Positions 21,149 to 50,333 of a DNA stretch of 59,997 nt are shown here, one piece after another (position 1 is the first letter of the stretch; every line of letters begins with the position of its first letter). Below the pieces are notes generated by a model that saw nothing but the letters and a program-made list of their open reading frames with translations, was not told the origin of the DNA and searched no databases. This stretch comes from Bacteroidaceae bacterium (GTDB taxonomy: Bacteria > Bacteroidota > Bacteroidia > Bacteroidales > Bacteroidaceae): the NCBI GenBank assembly GCA_017379075.1, contig JAFNXL010000042.1, positions 1-59,997 of the forward strand. The letters run 5' to 3'. The position numbers and the translations under genes are program-made.

Positions 21149-21176
21149 AAAAAACACATTTATGAAAAAAATGTGT
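21149..21176 (-). terminator. Terminator of the tRNA-Val pair
   Basis: On the minus strand ACACAT (21176-21171) pairs with ATGTGT (21159-21154) and is followed by a T-run (21153-21149). The hairpin begins at the last base of the downstream tRNA, so the transcript ends right after it. Confidence 0.7.
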
Positions 21177-21250
21177 GGGTGTTGACGGATTCGAACCGCC
21201 GACCCTCTGCTTGTAAGGCAGATGCTCTGAACCGGCTGAGCTAAACACCC
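21176..21250 (-). tRNA. tRNA-Val (anticodon TAC)
   Basis: 75 nt on the minus strand. Acceptor GGGTGTT pairs with AACACCC; D-arm GCTCAGCCGGTTCAGAGC; anticodon arm CTGCC-TTACAAG-CAG type loop with TAC; T-arm GGCGGTTCGAATCCGTC; discriminator A. CCA is not encoded. It is identical to the copy 31 bp upstream. Confidence 0.95.
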
Positions 21251-21281
21251 GTGCTGTTTCCCGAATTGGCTTTTTGTTGTG

Positions 21282-21356
21282 TGGGTGTTGACGGATTCGA
21301 ACCGCCGACCCTCTGCTTGTAAGGCAGATGCTCTGAACCGGCTGAGCTAAACACCC
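21282..21356 (-). tRNA. tRNA-Val (anticodon TAC), second identical copy
   Basis: Same 75-nt sequence as 21176-21250, in tandem and in the same orientation. A promoter lies just upstream at 21381-21412, so the two are probably one transcript. Confidence 0.95.
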
Positions 21357-41433: not shown

Positions 41434-41746
41434 AATGATAATTTAACCGCAATATCCTGAAATATTTCGTCTTATTCATATGATCTATGATGCAAAAGTA
41501 ATAAGTTTTTTTGAAGAAAAAGAATTTTTTGCCAGAATGCTTCGCGTAATTTTGAATAATTATGCAGATAAAACGGAGAATGGCAGAATCGGTGTAACTT
41601 AAATCCAGTTTTCCTAAACTCATTGCTAAGGGCGCACGCCCCATTGTGAACAAGGTTAAACAAGTACGGCTCTGCGCTTGCTCAACCGCAAATACCAGCA
41701 TCTTGCCGCGAGTCTATGCCAGTACCGCGACGGTACCATATAAAGT
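41434..41746. other. Intergenic region upstream of the BASS transporter
   Basis: No credible gene is present. The stretch carries the transporter's leader, then GC-richer sequence with inverted GTACC words (AGTACCGCGACGGTACC at 41721-41736) leading into the 22-bp array that starts at 41747. A frame of 87 codons at 41716-41979 runs across the array and has no protein-like character. Confidence 0.5.
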
Positions 41747-41944
41747 GGTACTGGAGTACCATCGCTTTGGTACTGCAGTGTATTAGGCTTGATACTGCAG
41801 TTTCGTCGGCATGGTATTGTAGCGATGAAAAAGACCGACCAAAAAGGCAACGCGGTGCGATGAGAAAGTCATGCCGTTGCGATGGCTATTCCATGCTGTT
41901 GTCTTTGCCCCCGCAACGCATTGCGTTTTTGACGGCACTTTATA
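41747..41944. repeat. 22-bp-period array A, 3' of the LRR gene
   Basis: Units start exactly every 22 bp: GGTACTGGAGT at 41747, GGTACTGCAGT at 41769, GATACTGCAGT at 41791, GGTATTGTAGC at 41813. The second 11 bp of each unit are less conserved. The same phase continues with a different word: GCGATGAGAAAGTCATGCCGTT at 41857 and GCGATGGCTATTCCATGCTGTT at 41879, then units ending GCATT and CACTTTATA. Units are thus two 11-bp halves, equal to about one helical turn each. It is not a CRISPR (no spacer/repeat contrast, too short). Function unknown. Confidence 0.7.
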
Positions 41945-41950
41945 AAGAGC

Positions 41951-41990
41951 AGACGCACCGCCCTAATATAATAAGGTAGTGCGTCTTTTT
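41951..41990 (+). terminator. Plus-strand terminator with no obvious upstream gene
   Basis: AGACGCAC (41951-41958) pairs with GTGCGTCT (41979-41986) and the T-run follows on plus. It lies just past array A and 28 bp from the stop of the minus-strand LRR gene. It may serve the LRR gene as a hairpin, but the T-tract is on the other strand, hinting at a plus-strand transcript through the array. Confidence 0.65.
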
Positions 41991-42013
41991 GAATCTGTAT
42001 ATGTGGACAGGAT

Positions 42014-44119
42014 TTATCTGACCGCAATTTTCTTCCCGTTTATGATGTAGATGCCTTTGGGCAGCGTGCCTTGCAAATCGCTCATGCGGACTTGTCTCTT
42101 CACCGTCACGCCCTGCAGGTTATATACGTCTACGATGCTTTCATCCTCAAGTCCCTCTATGCCGTCGGCGGTGTAGAAACCTCTCCATTCGTTGGCGGCC
42201 ATATATGCCTCCTCACTTCCTTCGGGTACAATCAGCTTGCAGTTCAGACGGTCAACCTGCTCAAAAGCTTGTTTTTCACATACAGGTGGTTCGGTGGCAT
42301 GACAGGTTATTTGCCGTAAGTTTGTGCAAAGGCAAAAAGCAAAGGTTGCTATGTTTTTCATGCTTTCAGGTATAATGACTGAAGTTAGATTGTTGCATTC
42401 ATAGAAAGCACTATGGCCAATACTTGTTACCTTTTCTGGGATTTCAATAGAGTTGAGATTCCTACAGTACGCAAAAGATTTTTCTCCTATGCTTGTCACG
42501 CTGTTTGGAATCACGATAGAGGTAAGATTGGTGCAAAAGTCAAAAAGATAACTCTCTATGGCACTCAAATTATTCGGCAACTTTACCGAAGTCAGTCTTT
42601 CACAGTCCCAGAACGCTCCAAAACCTATACTTGTTACATTATCGGGAATTTCAATCGAGGTAATACGGGTGCCTCTGAATGCAGTTGCGCCAATGCTGGT
42701 TACACTGCCAGGAATATTTATTGAGGTTAGTTTGCTGATATGGTAAAATGCATCGCTTCCTATACTCGTTGTGTTATTAGGGATGATTGTTGACATACAG
42801 CCTGTAATCAACGTGTTCGTTTTAGAGTCAATGATGGCATTGCAATCTTCTCTTGAATCATACATTTTGTTGTTTTTGTCCACTTTGATTGAGGAAACTT
42901 CCAAACATTCCCTGAATACATTGCCTTCGATGCTTTCTACACTGTTTGGAATTTCAATTGATGTCAGCCCCCTGCAACCACAAAATGCTCTTGATCCAAT
43001 ATGAGTAACATTGGCGGGAATTTCAATTGATGTCAGTCCGTTGCAACCATAGAATGTTTCTGATTCAATACGGGTAACATTGGCAGGAATCTTGATCGAT
43101 GTTAGTTTGGAACAAAACCAAAAGGCTGAAGGTCCAATTTTTTCCAGTTTCTCTGGAACTTCAATCTCTGTAAGCTTGGAACATTCTGCAAATGCATACT
43201 CCCCGATGTTTGTTACGCTGTTCGGTATTTTTAATGACTCCAATTCTCTACAATAATTAAAGGCACGTCCACCAATGTCGGTCAGTCCTTCGTGAAGGAT
43301 AACGGAACTTAAGTTGAAGCAGGAAGCAAATGTACTGTTTTTAATACTTTTTACACTTTTGGGAATATCAATAGAAGTCAGCTTGCAATAATAAAAGGCA
43401 TGACTGCCAATGTCTGTTATGCTGTTTGGCATGTTAATTGTAGTTAATCCCGTAAAATAGAATGCGCTATCTCCGATTTCTGTTATTCCATCTGGAAGTT
43501 CAATTGAAGCCAGTGCCATACACTCATAAAAAACCCCTTTTCCAATGTTTTTAACAGTAGATGGTATATTTATTTGTCTCAAATACCTGCACGATGCAAA
43601 AGCCTGACTTGGGATACTGGTGATGTCACATGAGAGTTTAACTGAAGTCAGATTGGTGCAACTATGGAAAGCCCTTTCTCCAATATTAGTCACGTTTTTG
43701 GGTATTTCAATGGATGTAATCTTTTTACATGCGGCAAATGCACTTTTCCCAATATTAGTCAAACCTTCAGGGAGTACAGTGAGGTAGAAGTTGCTACATC
43801 CATAAAACGCTTCATCTCCAATTGTTTTTATGCTGTGTGGGAATGCAATATAGCTCAATCTGTTGTTTTTATAGAATGCCCGTTCTTCTATGCTTGTAAC
43901 AGAATAAGTGACGTTTTTATATACAATGGTTTCTGGAATATTAAAGCGGCCGTATAAATGATAGCCATTGATTTCACCGCATACGCCCACAGTCTTTTCA
44001 CTTTCTGATGTGATGTTATAATAAATCCCGTCAACCTCAAAATCATAGGCCAGGGCCGAAGTGCTGCATAATAGCGCTACTATTATTGCAAACCAGTTTC
44101 TCAATGTCATAGTTTTCAT
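42014..44119 (-). CDS. BspA-like leucine-rich-repeat (LRR_5) surface protein
   Basis: 701 residues. The signal peptide (LRNWFAIIVALLCSTSALA) is followed by about 20 LRR_5 repeats of about 23 residues with the pattern SIEIPNSVTSIGxxAFxxCxxLT, running from about residue 65 to 630. BspA-like proteins in oral and gut Bacteroidales mediate adhesion to host or bacterial surfaces. The C-terminal part VDVYNLQGVTVKRQ...LPKGIYIINGKKIAVR resembles the short C-terminal module, sometimes a type IX-like sorting signal, of Bacteroidales surface proteins. The gene is more AT-rich than its rhamnose-operon neighbours and is flanked by 22-bp-period arrays on both sides. A minus-strand TATTTTTG box lies at 44153-44146. 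Confidence 0.9.
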   Translation of the reverse strand: MKTMTLRNWFAIIVALLCSTSALAYDFEVDGIYYNITSESEKTVGVCGEINGYHLYGRFNIPETIVYKNVTYSVTSIEERAFYKNNRLSYIAFPHSIKTIGDEAFYGCSNFYLTVLPEGLTNIGKSAFAACKKITSIEIPKNVTNIGERAFHSCTNLTSVKLSCDITSIPSQAFASCRYLRQINIPSTVKNIGKGVFYECMALASIELPDGITEIGDSAFYFTGLTTINMPNSITDIGSHAFYYCKLTSIDIPKSVKSIKNSTFASCFNLSSVILHEGLTDIGGRAFNYCRELESLKIPNSVTNIGEYAFAECSKLTEIEVPEKLEKIGPSAFWFCSKLTSIKIPANVTRIESETFYGCNGLTSIEIPANVTHIGSRAFCGCRGLTSIEIPNSVESIEGNVFRECLEVSSIKVDKNNKMYDSREDCNAIIDSKTNTLITGCMSTIIPNNTTSIGSDAFYHISKLTSINIPGSVTSIGATAFRGTRITSIEIPDNVTSIGFGAFWDCERLTSVKLPNNLSAIESYLFDFCTNLTSIVIPNSVTSIGEKSFAYCRNLNSIEIPEKVTSIGHSAFYECNNLTSVIIPESMKNIATFAFCLCTNLRQITCHATEPPVCEKQAFEQVDRLNCKLIVPEGSEEAYMAANEWRGFYTADGIEGLEDESIVDVYNLQGVTVKRQVRMSDLQGTLPKGIYIINGKKIAVR

Positions 44120-44320
44120 AGAAGTAAATTTTATTATTAATAATGCAAAAATACTGATAATGTTTTAGATATGTAACGAAAGATGTGTTAAAAGATGTTA
44201 TATGAACCTTAATTTTATCAAAATGTCGCTTATAGTTAGCAAATGAATATTCCAGACAAAGTACACAATAACTCTACATCGGATGAAAATCTTTGACAAA
44301 TTGAGATTTTTTAGGAAATC

Positions 44321-44430
44321 CAGCTGAAAAGTCGAAAATGCCCAGTTGGAAAAATATTATTTCCCAACAGGAAAATTATTTTTTCTCAGTTGGAAAGTTA
44401 AAAATTTCCAGTAGGGCATTTTGGGACGGC
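44321..44430. repeat. 22-bp-period array C, 5' of the LRR gene
   Basis: Five units begin exactly 22 bp apart: CAGCTGAAAAG at 44321, CAGTTGGAAAA at 44343, CAACAGGAAAA at 44365, CAGTTGGAAAG at 44387, CAGTAGGGCAT at 44409. The second halves are mostly A/T ending in TTTCC or similar, so neighbouring units can pair (GTTGGAAA with TTTCCCAAC; TTGGAAA with TTTCCA). The whole is bracketed by AAAATGCCC (44335-44343) and GGGCATTTT (44414-44422). It sits about 200 bp upstream of the LRR start. Confidence 0.7.
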
Positions 44431-44522
44431 CTTTTAGGTTCGTTTTTGAACTATTTCGAGTGGTTTTTGTTCATTTTGGAATCAATGTATGGTTCGCGGG
44501 AAAAAGTAAAAATGTTTGACAT

Positions 44523-45303
44523 TGAGTGGTGAGTGGGTAGGGGGTAGCGATTGGCACACAGATGACACGGATGCGACGGATGATCACAGATTTTGACCAA
44601 TGAGTAGTGAGCAATGAGCGTTTAACGAATATCGTTTGAATAATCTCCGTTGCCGGTTCCCGTCTTTCAGACGCCATTTATATACGGACATTATAAACCG
44701 GAGGCTTGAAAGCCCCCGGCTATTTAATTCCCCGTCTTCCAGACGTTTTTTCTTTTCCGTAAATAAGTAGAGGCGTCTGAAGGACGCGATGCCCGAAAGG
44801 GCGAATAGCCGCGGGTTCTTGAACCCGTGGTATTCAAGCGCCCCTCACACATTCGCCGTCTGCAAAGACGGGAATCGGCAATGGTTTTGAGCAATGAGTT
44901 GTGAGTTTTTTCGACTAAAGAACAGAAGAACATTTTGAGTGATGAGTGATGAGGGGTGAGGGAGTAGGGACGTTGCGTGCAGCGTCCGAAGAGAACACGA
45001 GAGTTATAATCTCACACTTTCACGAATCTCACGAAATATTGCTCTAAGCCTTTGGTGGGATTGGCGGGATTGGCGTGAGTGAAAACCCCGGACGCTGCAC
45101 GCAGACGTCCCTACCTCTTCACCGCTCACCGTTTAATAATGGCACGCAGATGACGCCAATGCGACAGATTACCGCAGATTTAATTTTTTGATAGAGTAAT
45201 AAAAGGACCTATTTTTCTTTTGATACTTCTGTTCTTATGTCAAATCTCATCGCTCACAACTCAAAAATCTGTCGTATCTGTGTAATCTGTGTGCCATTCA
45301 CCA
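44523..45303. repeat. Dense patch of dispersed phrase and REP-like repeats
   Basis: No gene. Families seen: TGAGTGATGAGTGATGAG-type words (44523-44543, 44599-44620, 44886-44906, 44935-44965, 45243-45262); CACAGATGACACGGATGCGAC-type words (44552-44594, 45140-45180, and inverted CTGTGTAATCTGTGTGCC at 45262-45297); REP-like GTCTTTCAGACG/GGCTTGAAAGCCCCCGGC and GCGGGTTCTTGAACCCGT palindromes (44657-44880); and a GGGACGT...GCAGCGTCC element at 44965-44988 facing its inverted partner at 45089-45113. The same families occur at 11.6-13.6 and 16.8 kb. Confidence 0.75.
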
Positions 45304-45422
45304 TATTTGTCAAAAAACAAGAAAAAGGGATTTGGGGGTGACGGAAGAAAATACGGAGATATTCAACCTTCTTATAATCAATCGGATGCAAATCCGTAAA
45401 ATTACCTCTGAAATCACACGAA

Positions 45423-45464
45423 AAAAAGACTTAAGTGTTTCTGGAGTTTCACTTAAGTCTTTTT
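45423..45464 (-). terminator. Terminator of the rhamnose operon, built from array B units
   Basis: AAAAAGACTTAAGTG (45423-45437) and CACTTAAGTCTTTTT (45450-45464) form a perfect 15-bp stem; on the minus strand it ends in a T-run. A second hairpin, AACACTTAA (45470-45478) with TTAAGTGTT (45497-45505), precedes it. Both lie 3' of rhaD. Confidence 0.75.
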
Positions 45465-45515
45465 GGAAAAACACTTAACTGTTACTGAAGAAACACTTAA
45501 GTGTTATTTTTACCC
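45428..45515. repeat. 22-bp-period array B, 3' of rhaD
   Basis: Four units start exactly every 22 bp: GACTTAAGTGT at 45428, CACTTAAGTCT at 45450, CACTTAACTGT at 45472, CACTTAAGTGT at 45494. The core ACTTAAGT is palindromic; second halves are TTCTGGAGTTT, TTTTGGAAAAA, TACTGAAGAAA, TATTTTTACCC. The period and 11+11 structure equal those of arrays A and C although the words differ. Adjacent units form terminator-like hairpins at the end of the rhamnose operon. Confidence 0.75.
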
Positions 45516-45551
45516 GATTTTTGTGTAAGGATTTTTCTGTTCCATTCTGAT

Positions 45552-46373
45552 TTAACAAGGTCTTTCCTTGGGCAGCTTGAAGACATCCTGTATGTCTTTT
45601 ACGTCCTTTTCTGTCATGCCGTCGGGTTCCGAACCCATGTTGCGGGCACACATATAGATGTTGGCTGCCTTGCAGAGAACGTCGGTCTGGTCGAAGGCGT
45701 CCATGATGTCTGTGCCTACTGCCACGGTTCCGTGCTTCTCCCACAATACCACATCGTGGGTCTTTATCTGCTCCAATGTGGCGTCGGCCAGTTCAATGGA
45801 ACCGGGGATGTAATAGGGTACAATGCCGATTCCCAACGGAGCGAATGCCAATGTTTCCGGTATCATGGACCAGAGGACACGGGTCATCTCGTCGCCCTTG
45901 AGGAAGCGGCGGATGTGCGACATGGCCACCAGTTCAATGGGGTGGGTGTGGAGCGTGGCCTTGTATGTGCTGCCTGTCTCCAGCAGATAGTTCTGCAGGG
46001 CAAGGTGTGAGGGAAGCTCGCTTGTGGGCATCACGGGTTCGTCGGCAATGATTTCGTAGGACGCGCAGTCGTCGCAGATGCGGATGATGGCTCCGTTCTG
46101 CATGGGCCAACGCGCAAGGTCTCGCATGCGCTTGCCTGTTCCCTTGGCATAGAAGTACTTTCCTTTCAGATAGGGGAGCACCTTGCCAATCTGCTTGGCG
46201 GGGGCTATGGCTGGCATGGCCTTTATTTCGTCGTCTACAAATTCGGTTACATTGACAGTGATGTTGCCGCCGTTGCGTTCGGCCCATCCTTTTTGCCACA
46301 GGTAGCCGGTTACTTCTGCCACTTGGTTGATGACAGCGGCCAGTCCGGGGCGTCCGTCTAATATACTGCTCAT
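45552..46373 (-). CDS. rhaD: Rhamnulose-1-phosphate aldolase
   Basis: 273 residues. Class II, zinc-dependent aldolase splitting L-rhamnulose 1-phosphate into dihydroxyacetone phosphate and L-lactaldehyde. Recognisable parts: GWAERNGGNITVNV near the N-terminus, the metal site THPIELVAMSH (His pair) and later VLWEKHGTVAVG. Last gene of the rhaB-rhaA-rhaT-rhaD run, 25 bp after rhaT. No lactaldehyde reductase gene follows in this window; the next 1.4 kb is repeats. Confidence 0.95.
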   Translation of the reverse strand: MSSILDGRPGLAAVINQVAEVTGYLWQKGWAERNGGNITVNVTEFVDDEIKAMPAIAPAKQIGKVLPYLKGKYFYAKGTGKRMRDLARWPMQNGAIIRICDDCASYEIIADEPVMPTSELPSHLALQNYLLETGSTYKATLHTHPIELVAMSHIRRFLKGDEMTRVLWSMIPETLAFAPLGIGIVPYYIPGSIELADATLEQIKTHDVVLWEKHGTVAVGTDIMDAFDQTDVLCKAANIYMCARNMGSEPDGMTEKDVKDIQDVFKLPKERPC

Positions 46374-48780: not shown

Positions 48781-48825
48781 GTTTTTATTTTTGTTTTAAT
48801 GGTTGGTAAAATGTCGTTTTTATTT

Positions 48826-48858
48826 TTTCCTCGGGAGGAAAATATTTTTCCCTCGCGA
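48826..48858. repeat. CCTCGGGAGGAAAA palindromic repeat between rhaB and rhaA
   Basis: CCTCGGGAGGAAAATATTTTTCC and CCTCGCGA form an imperfect palindrome. A near copy, inverted, lies at 14203-14243. It is probably a dispersed intergenic element and may fold in the rha transcript. Confidence 0.6.
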
Positions 48859-48863
48859 TAGCG

Positions 48864-50333
48864 TTATTTTTGCATGGCGAGGAAACGCTGGTAAGGCTCT
48901 TCCCAAACAGCGGTTTCCTGGGGCAGATAAGTGCGGGTCTCTATGCTGTCTGCAATGATGCCTCGCATCTGGAACATATCGTTCACCAGACCGGCTGCCT
49001 TGGCCTGCAGCATGATGTTGCCGATGGCGGTTCCTTCCACGGGACCGGTGATTACCGGCATGCCGATGCTGTCTGCGGCCATCTGCATGAGATAGCGGTT
49101 ATATGTGCCGCCACCGATGACGTGGAGCTTTTCGATGGGGAAGGGGGCAAGGCCGTGCAGATAATCCAGAATCTGACGATAGCGCAATGCCAGGCTCTCG
49201 AAGATGCAGCGGGCAAACTGCTTGTAGTCCTGCGGTTCGGGTTGTCCGGTCTCGCGGCAGAAATCGCAGATGGCCTTGGTCATGCTTTCGGGATTGGCGA
49301 ATCTGGGATCGTCGGGGTTGATGAGCGAGCGGAAGGCAGGAGCCGTCATGGCATCGCTGTTGATCTGGTTCACGTCGGACGGGGCGTCGGTCCATTCCTG
49401 TCGGCAACGTTCCAGCAGCCACATTCCGCAGATGTTCTTGAGGAAACGGGTTGTACCCTCTATGCCGCCTTCGTTGGTGAAGTTGTATTCGAAACTCTTC
49501 TCGTTGATGATGGCATCCTTTGTCTCAATGCCCAGAAGGCTCCAGGTTCCGCAACTCAGATAAGCGAAATTCTGGTTCTGGGCGGGCACAGCTGCCACGG
49601 CGGCACCGGTATCATGGCCTGCCACAGCCACTACGGGCACGGGGCCAACGCCTGTCATCTTCTGTATCTCTGGAGTCAGCACACCCACCTTGTCACTGGG
49701 ATTCACATAACGGCCAAACTGTTCTTCGCGCAAGCCGATGGCACCGATAAGCTCGGGGTCAATGCGCTTGGTTCTGGGGTCGAGCATCTGGCTTGTGGAG
49801 AGGATGGTGTATTCGCATACCGCTTCGCCGGTGAGCATATACATCAGGGCGTCGGGGATGAAAAGAATCTTGTCCGCCGCTTCCAGTGCCGAGTCGTTGT
49901 TACGGCGCATTGTGGCCAACTGGAAAAGGGAGTTGAAGTTCATGAACTGGATACCGGTCTTGTCATAGACCTTTTCTTTGGGGATGAGCTTGAAGTATTC
50001 GTCCATCGCCCCTTCGGTGTGAGGGTCGCGGTAGCTGTAGGGATTGCGCAGGATGCCGCCGTCCTTGCCAATGCAGACAAAGTCCACACCCCAGGTGTCA
50101 ATGCCGATGCTGGTCAGTTGGATGCCTTCTTCGGCCACCGTCTTCAAGCTGCGGATAATCTCGTTGTACAAAGCATAAATGTCCCAAAAGAAGTGTCCGC
50201 CTTGCTGGATGATGGGGTTGGCAAAGCGTGTCATCTCGCGCTGGGCGAGCTTCCCGTTCTCAATGGAACCTAATATGGTGCGGCCGCTTGTTGCGCCAAG
50301 GTCTACGGCCAGAAAAAAACTTGTTTTGTTCAT
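48864..50333 (-). CDS. rhaB: Rhamnulokinase
   Basis: 489 residues. FGGY-family kinase phosphorylating L-rhamnulose at O-1. The N-terminal phosphate loop is DLGATSGRTILG (about 11-22); IGIDTWGVDFVCIG and GHDTGAAVAAVPA are characteristic, and the C-terminal ATP-site wording HVIGGGTYNRYLMQMAAD is present. First gene of the operon; the 172-bp spacer to the divergent outer-membrane gene carries a weak TATCTTTA box on the minus strand (50382-50375). No AraC-type rhaR is visible nearby. Confidence 0.96.
   Translation of the reverse strand: MNKTSFFLAVDLGATSGRTILGSIENGKLAQREMTRFANPIIQQGGHFFWDIYALYNEIIRSLKTVAEEGIQLTSIGIDTWGVDFVCIGKDGGILRNPYSYRDPHTEGAMDEYFKLIPKEKVYDKTGIQFMNFNSLFQLATMRRNNDSALEAADKILFIPDALMYMLTGEAVCEYTILSTSQMLDPRTKRIDPELIGAIGLREEQFGRYVNPSDKVGVLTPEIQKMTGVGPVPVVAVAGHDTGAAVAAVPAQNQNFAYLSCGTWSLLGIETKDAIINEKSFEYNFTNEGGIEGTTRFLKNICGMWLLERCRQEWTDAPSDVNQINSDAMTAPAFRSLINPDDPRFANPESMTKAICDFCRETGQPEPQDYKQFARCIFESLALRYRQILDYLHGLAPFPIEKLHVIGGGTYNRYLMQMAADSIGMPVITGPVEGTAIGNIMLQAKAAGLVNDMFQMRGIIADSIETRTYLPQETAVWEEPYQRFLAMQK

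Follow-up and report, generated by a model that had tools for sequence, protein, structure and literature searches.

Intergenic arrays with a shared 22-bp step in a Prevotella-like bacterium and its relatives

The closest known system to the arrays described here is BrickBuilt, a 23-nt minisatellite MITE of Porphyromonas gingivalis, which belongs to the same order, Bacteroidales. The BrickBuilt report describes a dispersed intergenic element of 19 copies, built from a leader, a tandem 23-nt repeat of up to 22.8 units, and a tail; a single word is used, part of the unit is conserved and its latter half is variable, the repeat has stem-loop potential, the ends are IS5-like terminal inverted repeats, and the element is confined to a single species and its close relatives (Klein et al., 2015; PMC4596501). 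The report also mentions 22- and 41-nt repeats in strain W83. REP and BIME sequences (PMC3733652; PMC2267715) are palindromic, intergenic, mosaic, and clustered, with units of 20–40 bp that mostly carry a GTAG or CGTC tag and are tied to RAYT transposases; they are IS targets, and their proposed roles are termination, mRNA stability, and binding of gyrase or IHF. Further reports ascribe an ∼11-bp periodicity of bacterial genomes, concentrated intergenically in E. coli, to the helix pitch of supercoiled DNA (PMC516772; PMC4132750), and describe DNA-uptake-type terminators, in which two nearby copies of a dispersed word make the terminator hairpin (PMC2267715).

Against this background we analyzed a 59,997-nt stretch of contig JAFNXL010000042.1 (the window). 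Two of its arrays, B and C, resemble BrickBuilt in being the tandem 22-nt cores of multi-copy intergenic elements with a leader and a tail, a comparison of descriptions rather than of sequences. However, the BrickBuilt unit is 23 nt rather than 22, and its single word contrasts with ∼7 words here in one genome. The arrays are also palindromic, intergenic, mosaic, and clustered like REP/BIME but have a tandem period of 22 bp, and reading by eye we found no GTAG or CGTC tag beside a 20–40 bp stem-loop common to the array words. A period near 11 bp is shared with the genome-wide periodicity, although that is a bias of bases or dinucleotides, whereas here whole 11- and 22-bp words repeat. The layout of a CRISPR, with near-identical repeats parted by unique spacers, is not seen, since the 22-bp units abut one another and have diverged, and an Rfam search of the whole window at the gathering threshold returned two tRNAs only.

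Arrays in the window

The original prediction held that three arrays of unrelated words share an exact 22-bp period, and this was borne out. TRF recovered array C (44341–44396) and array B (45425–45505), each at period 22 with 0% indels, and an ungapped lag-22 self-match scan recovered all three, with scores of 17.6 for array A (41746–41822), 16.0 for C, and 27.4 for B. Array A is the weakest; it has no TRF row at score 30, and it fell under the threshold when the window alone was scanned with a stricter penalty. Among lags 8–40 in that scan, only lag 22 gave two matches (C and B), and lags 9 and 12 gave one each.

The predicted unit starts were correct as well. Array A (41746..41822) has 3.5 units of 22 bp with the palindromic word GGTACTGCAGTACC, and weaker units carry on at 41857 and 41879. 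Array C (44321..44422) has about 4.5 units, with palindromic cores CCAGTTGG or CCAACTGG flanked by TTTCC and GGAAA, and array B (45421..45512) consists of four 22-bp palindromes with the word AAACACTTAAGTGTTT. The count of three had missed a fourth 22-bp array (48821..48880), which carries the palindromic word TTTTCCTCGCGAGGAAAA and lies between rhaB-like and rhaA-like genes; none of the four is assigned to a strand. The claim that one half of each unit is conserved and the other drifts was roughly right, in that the conserved part is usually the palindrome and the spacer drifts.

Between arrays A and C, the ORF list places a leucine-rich-repeat surface protein gene (42014..44119, minus strand), which we take to be BspA-like, and the original prediction remarked that all three arrays lie around it. 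We found no special link between this gene and arrays A and C, and since B and C turn up all over the genome, nothing sets this location apart. Rather than three inventions around one gene, the arrays are samples of multi-copy dispersed families. Array A has relatives at other places in the genome, including C19 (84%) and C73 (82%); the five copies that we aligned share no flank common to all, and the array in the window and C19 are alike for about 60 bp further to the right. Five aligned copies of an ATGTAAA array family likewise have no common flank, and unit number differs between copies in the family with GGAACGTACG. By our grouping, there are ∼7 words among the 16 lag-22 arrays of this genome and ∼10 others in eight congeners; words differ between arrays and between species. 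The assembly comprises 106 contigs, with several array copies close to contig ends.

Elements C and B

The B and C arrays are each set in an element of ∼235 bp. The C element (44284..44521, minus strand, ∼238 bp) was delimited by aligning 18 copies, which have common ends and a common layout; on the minus strand the consensus ends, read by eye, are TGTCAAA and TGTAAAGA, and they are only weakly inverted. BLAST similarity extends to about 44535, into a heptamer repeat. C and B are joined by a mosaic of other dispersed repeats (44522..45305, unstranded; TGAGCRR heptamers and CGTCC-type inverted repeats). Array C has 17 long copies in this genome and 27 BLAST matches (both strands, self included). 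The whole element has 23 matches here, 23 in the related genome G091, 41 in G101, and none in 36 same-genus genomes. At one site with flanks 93–95% identical, this genome carries a C element and G101 carries other arrays. On its left, C adjoins the 5′ end of a gene in 10 of 14 copies, and on its right the 3′ end of one in 11 of 17, at distances up to 1126 bp, so that C shows no 3′-end placement. We also found that, among 29 distinct copies, the core of the middle palindrome has one orientation in 15 and the other in 14 (AACA 8, TGTT 7, AGTT 7, AACT 7), a near-equal split that may be a sign of hairpin-mediated inversion.

The B element (45306..45537, plus strand, ∼232 bp) comprises a leader TTTGTCAAAAAACAAG, the array, and a tail TGTAAGGATTTTT, again with common ends and layout in an alignment of 20 copies. 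Array B occurs at 21 places in this genome (20 full, 1 partial) and gives 43 BLAST matches (both strands, self included); among copy flanks compared by eye there was no consistent target-site duplication. A search of other genomes found B in 0 of 60 in one set, where many genomes had only 12 candidates scored, and in two of four in another; G014 was in both sets. Because C and B often lie 0.5–1.3 kb apart, a composite transposon bounded by the two was an attractive reading, but in the stretches that we compared each also occurs alone, and each has its own ends.

In the window, B stops ∼14 bp from the stop codon of a rhaD-like aldolase gene (45552..46373, minus strand, ORF list), the last gene of what we take to be a rhaB-rhaA-rhaT-rhaD-like run, and it occupies the same place behind rhaD in three species (this genome, G101, and G091). 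To the right of B lies the 3′ end of a gene in 15 of the 20 copies in this genome, within 45 bp for 9 of the 15, and likewise in 11 of 12 loci of G091 and G101, some of which are orthologous, again with 9 within 45 bp. An A-run at the left edge of the array, a U-run on the minus strand, is present in all 30 distinct copies from the three genomes. The four palindromes can pair as two hairpins or as one nested hairpin, and each strand folds better than its shuffled versions (z −3.6 and −4.6); in 1 of the 30 copies, the 12-nt loop is inverted. A first count of compensating changes favored pairing of neighboring units 1–2 and 3–4 (four double changes versus none within units). A full scan of centers gave 11 at the unit 2–3 center and 11 at an off-register center, and because the latter scores as high, compensating changes cannot settle which units pair.

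B thus has the anatomy of an intrinsic terminator, namely a hairpin with a U-run at once after it, behind a stop codon. B was absent from the output of a simple scan for terminators, which allows loops of 3–8 and may for that reason have passed over the 12-nt loop. Since B usually lies 5–45 bp behind stop codons, in one orientation and with the U-run on the correct strand, it is most likely a bidirectional intrinsic terminator or an mRNA-end hairpin. Like the paired-word terminators, B makes its hairpin from nearby copies of a dispersed word, but it differs in being a four-unit array in a larger element, and we know of no uptake role for B.

Lag 22 among intergenic repeat periods

The original prediction named a refuting outcome, that lag 22 be no commoner than lags 18–26 in intergenic DNA. 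Instead, in the sampled intergenic DNA of both this genome and its genus, no repeat period was as frequent as lag 22. Our sample of this genome covered 781 kb (26%) of an incomplete draft, window included and with a small part reading N, and in it lag 22 took 16 of 35 places, lags 21 and 23 three each, lags 18–20 together two, and lags 24–26 together one. In 20 other species of the genus, represented by their first contigs by number rather than at random, lag 22 took 13 of 21 places, with none at 18–21 or 23–26. Among rhaD loci of the wider Prevotellaceae (the best 80 of 563 confirmed relatives, related contigs included), lag 22 took 14 of 74 places and lag 11 took 15, 8 of the 15 coming from L129 and L139. 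Other families of the order had lag 22 at 1 of 20 places and E. coli at 0 of 2. Noncoding DNA was set by ORF length (120 aa), without annotation; a slightly different treatment of its edges gave the own set 34 places with 16 at lag 22, the genus set 20 with 12, and the rhaD set 73 with 14.

Dinucleotide shuffles gave no lag-22 places in four of five sets, the own and genus sets among them, and 0.33 per run in the fifth, so that the period common to unrelated words is far above chance; on these shuffles we dropped simple slippage repeats and chance as explanations. TRF agreed: of its 115 arrays, period 22 accounts for 31 and period 11 for 19, periods 21 and 23 for 7 apiece, and no other period for more than 6. 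Across 127 arrays the periods fall preferentially on multiples of 11.0 bp (R 0.64), and the clustering is still present without lag 22 (n = 85, R 0.46); once lags 11 and 21–23 are all left out, it loses significance (p about 0.06; best period 14.8). Palindromes at p < 0.05 are frequent in lag 21–23 arrays (14 of 22 in the own set and 6 of 12 in the genus, versus 12 of 55 at other lags); this enrichment is absent in the wider Prevotellaceae set (5 of 22), where lags 11 and 22 are equally common. We also asked how often arrays are free of indels: 21 of 31 at period 22, 13 of 28 at 12–20, 12 of 17 at 24–60, and 5 of 5 at 10. Indels at period 22 are no rarer than at 24–60, so rigid spacing is not shown by this measure. 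Our literature search, which lay largely outside subscription journals, found no report of a word-independent 22-bp period.

Explanations for the common period

We put the probability of the following reading, taken whole, at roughly 0.55. The arrays would form the central part of dispersed, MITE- or BIME-like repeat elements that are intergenic and limited to a clade, each core consisting of a few units in tandem, often palindromic, with a repeat length of two helical turns (∼22 bp) irrespective of the word. Copies are spread over the genome, and the content of one orthologous site differs between species, which shows dispersal and exchange. The palindromes probably behave as hairpin-prone DNA, because cores and loops are seen to flip orientation between copies. 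B would additionally act at transcript 3′ ends, as a bidirectional intrinsic terminator or an mRNA-end hairpin, and the common period would most likely reflect a constraint or a duplication process tied to helix pitch.

The likeliest alternative, though still a doubtful one, is a neutral generator, a replication or recombination error such as hairpin strand-switching or a nicking enzyme that duplicates about two turns at a time, after which the arrays drift and are spread, without function, by unrelated mobile elements. A period independent of the word, the flipping cores, the variable unit number of the GGAACGTACG family, and the restriction of 22-bp spacing to tandem copies are all consistent with this; however, the kept position of B behind rhaD and its orientation bias suggest constraint, at least for B. 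Somewhat less probable, and in our view unlikely, is that all arrays were selected as REP-like stem-loops in transcripts, as terminators or mRNA stabilizers, with the period set by the size of a stable two-unit hairpin. The anatomy and position of B point this way, as does folding, in which seven of eight array strands gave z of −3.4 to −14.8 and one gave −2.0. Arrays lie near gene 3′ ends in the genus (7 of 14 distances under 60 bp, background 31%; 1 of 13 arrays unplaced) and in the family set (10 of 14, background 26%; 8 of 24 unplaced); in the genus, arrays lie close to 5′ ends too (5 of 10, background 30%). For the own-genome arrays as a class no nearness to 3′ ends is seen, with 4 of 27 distances below 60 bp against a background of 22%. 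C shows no such placement, hairpins do not need an exact 22-bp period, and U-runs at array edges are at background level as a class (16 of 61 versus 27%–30%), so a terminator role cannot be general.

We think it more improbable again that the arrays are nucleoid, partition, or transposase-end sites on which dimeric proteins of one family, each recognizing a palindrome of its own, sit side by side along one helix face, with 22 bp selected for cooperative binding. The palindromic words and the two-turn period fit such proteins, and array L202:12557 has, by eye, two different palindromes with centers 11 bp apart. Palindromes at p < 0.05 are frequent in lag 21–23 arrays (14 of 22 in the own set and 6 of 12 in the genus, versus 12 of 55 at other lags); this enrichment is absent in the wider Prevotellaceae set (5 of 22), where lags 11 and 22 are equally common. 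Yet pairs of dissimilar palindromes were never 22 bp apart in the own, genus, or rhaD-locus sets, and with no peak there we rejected the geometry of unrelated palindromes as the source of the period; the predicted protein along one face found no support in this test. The own set did have more pairs than expected at 11 bp (8 pairs), as dyads midway between tandem palindromes would produce. As many words as we grouped would also require equally many proteins, the indel counts show no rigidity beyond that of period 24–60 arrays, and flipping cores fit poorly with sequence-specific binding. Chance or an assembly artifact, to which the many contigs and the copies near their ends might point, is very improbable given shuffles near zero at lag 22 and the recurrence of B at the same site in other species' assemblies.

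Overall, this Prevotella-like bacterium and related species carry dispersed intergenic families of arrays, and their shared 22-bp step, whatever the wording, suggests one common process or constraint. We offer as a tentative idea, itself rather unlikely, that the genus harbors an undescribed, sequence-blind two-turn process or constraint that makes or keeps palindrome arrays while words change and cores flip, an element class defined by geometry and renewed species by species. If a period common to unrelated words holds across the genus, something besides shared ancestry would set it, and the class would be detectable by geometry alone. The isolated case of BrickBuilt would then join a wider pattern, and this major gut and rumen lineage would offer a test bed for the effects of helix pitch on repeat birth, hairpin inversion, and transcript ends.

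Recurrence of the 22-bp period in noncoding DNA

Arrays A, C and B start at positions 41747, 44321 and 45428 of the window, exactly where the original prediction placed them. A lag scan recovered all three at the common 22-bp period that had been proposed, and TRF returned a period of 22 without indels for B and C. We also found a fourth 22-bp array at 48821-48880. Elsewhere in the window (21176-21356), a pair of tRNAs with equal scores lies in a 106-bp tandem duplication with 97% matches.

We then followed the period in an ungapped self-match scan of noncoding DNA at lags of 10-60, with short-period places removed and one lag counted per place. The source genome is a 3.0 Mb draft in 106 contigs, of which the window is contig C53. 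In a 781 kb sample of it, lag 22 was found at 16 of 35 places (4 of the 16 from the window itself), lags 21 and 23 at 3 each, lags 18-20 at 2 and lags 24-26 at 1. In 361 kb from 20 species of the genus (20 stretches), lag 22 accounted for 13 of 21 places, and lags 18-21 and 23-26 for none. The comparison with neighbouring lags in intergenic DNA, which had been named as the test that could refute the period, gave an excess at 22 in both samples, and the observation made in one window is borne out and widened to a genus-wide pattern. In 900 kb from 80 Prevotellaceae-like loci around rhaD (the best 80 of 563 confirmed relatives), lag 22 was found at 14/74 places, lag 11 at 15 and lags 21 and 23 at 4 each. 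Other families of the order had lag 22 at 1/20 places (40 stretches, 565 kb), and 200 kb of E. coli at 0/2. Three runs of dinucleotide shuffling yielded no lag-22 place in four of the five sets and an average of 0.33 per run for the other families of the order.

TRF was concordant: among 115 arrays, the period was 22 in 31, 11 in 19, 21 in 7 and 23 in 7. Multiples of 11.0 bp fit the periods of 127 arrays; the fit holds without lag 22 and without both 11 and 22, and is lost without lags 11 and 21-23 (p about 0.06). Freedom from indels does not mark 22-bp arrays (21/31, versus 13/28 at periods 12-20 and 12/17 at periods 24-60). Tandem arrays of 42 bp, with about 5.5-6.5 units, were seen at L077:15650-15921, L087:19751-19982 and L092:18018-18283, those of L077 and L092 sharing an ATTTCAA..TGAAAT palindrome. 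Relatives carry long ungapped 11-bp arrays with strongly drifting units (L133:12605-12781 and L151:7330-7413); in L151, the second half approximates the reverse complement of the first.

The words vary from array to array and from species to species. By our grouping, the 16 lag-22 arrays sampled in the source genome hold seven words, and the 12 listed for the genus, in 8/20 stretches, hold about ten. Among arrays of lag 21-23, units were palindromic (p<0.05) in 14/22 in the source genome and 6/12 in the genus; palindromes were not common in the wider set (5/22; other lags, 12/55). Since dissimilar neighbouring palindromes lack the 22-bp spacing, the 22-bp rule is one for tandem copies.

B and C as dispersed, exchanged elements

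BLAST of array C against its own genome gave 27 matches, 17 of them longer than 100 bp. Array B gave 43: matches at 21 places, one of which is partial, one short fragment, and hits of the palindromic array to its own opposite strand. The B element (45306-45537, plus strand) is ~232 bp long (20 copies aligned) and the C element (44284-44521, minus strand) ~238 bp (18 copies aligned). In the same sense, both run from TGTCAAA through a leader of ~100-117 bp, then the 22-bp array and a short tail, to TGTAAAGA(T)n. They are frequently neighbours in an intergenic mosaic of other repeats; among the stretches fetched, some have B without C and some C without B. At 44522-45305 of the window, as at many loci, the mosaic between elements is built from CGTCC-type inverted repeats and runs of TGAGCRR heptamers. 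By eye, a B element at L246:250-1020, on contig C40 of the source genome, has ~550 bp with 42-bp repeats in place of most of its array. Other arrays of the source genome belong to further families: the ATGTAAA family showed no conservation beyond the array, and five copies of the GGTACTGCAG family, that of array A, had no flank common to all, two sharing about 60 bp.

Among the loci returned, the nearest relatives of the window's RhaD-like protein came from uncultured Bacteroidales of the rumen and gut, at up to 91%, with Palleniella intestinalis at 87%. We found no B in 60 other genomes searched, 36 of them congeners, and no C in 36 congeners searched. Both were present in G091 and G101, the nearest genomes by rhaD DNA (B, 18 and 39 matches; C, 23 and 41, respectively), and neither was found in G014 or G137. 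In each of the three species, a copy of B is located behind rhaD. At one pair of loci (L026/L282), flanks 93-95% identical enclose a C element in the source genome and other palindrome arrays in G101, indicating that element content has been exchanged. In G101, a MITE-like element of ~190 bp with ends GGTGGTTCTAAAAATT sits within a B array between duplicated CTTAAG (L280:1300-1500, contig C81), so the palindrome served here as an insertion target. Visual inspection also showed fragments with similar ends close to further arrays (L044, L059 and L246). At L287, L294 and L296 of G101, the flanks of single elements match two separate places in the source genome, which reflects rearrangement or misassembly at repeats.

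In 29 distinct C copies from the three genomes, the middle palindrome core was AACA in 8 and TGTT, AGTT and AACT in 7 each, amounting to two words that both occur in either orientation; units 1 and 3 were nearly fixed (AGTT in 27/29 and 25/29). The 12-nt loop was inverted in 1 of 30 distinct B copies. Together with the C cores, this inverted loop points to possible hairpin-mediated inversion.

Gene context and putative termination

A gene 3' end lies to the right of B in 15/20 copies of the source genome (9 of the 15 within 45 bp, the others at 72-243 bp) and in 11/12 loci of G091 and G101, some orthologous (9/11 within 45 bp). An A-run is kept at the left edge in 30/30 distinct copies; for a transcript arriving from the right-hand gene, it would be a U-run behind the last hairpin. 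Judged from sequence, this is the anatomy of a putative terminator; B was not among the hits of a simple terminator scan. C lacks a B-like placement (left neighbour 5' end in 10/14, right neighbour 3' end in 11/17), the arrays as a class show no U-run excess (16/61), and nearness to 3' ends holds for the genus and family sets, not for the source genome; genus arrays lie near 5' ends too. For these reasons, putative termination would be a property of B, and perhaps of a few others, and not the reason for the 22-bp period.

Relation to known repeat elements

The closest known system is BrickBuilt of P. gingivalis, and the present elements are of the same kind. As described in PMC4596501, it has a leader, 23-nt tandem repeats with stem-loop potential and a tail, in 19 copies confined to P. 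gingivalis and its near relatives; its period, its ends and the number of its words are not those of the present elements. REP/BIMEs, in the descriptions consulted, are likewise palindromic and mosaic but are without tandem units at a constant period. Our arrays had no visible common tag of the REP type. In the accounts consulted (PMC516772, PMC4132750), the known 11-bp periodicity in bacterial genomes is a base or dinucleotide bias. Overall, these elements represent a variant of a type already known; what is new is a two-turn period that does not depend on the word.
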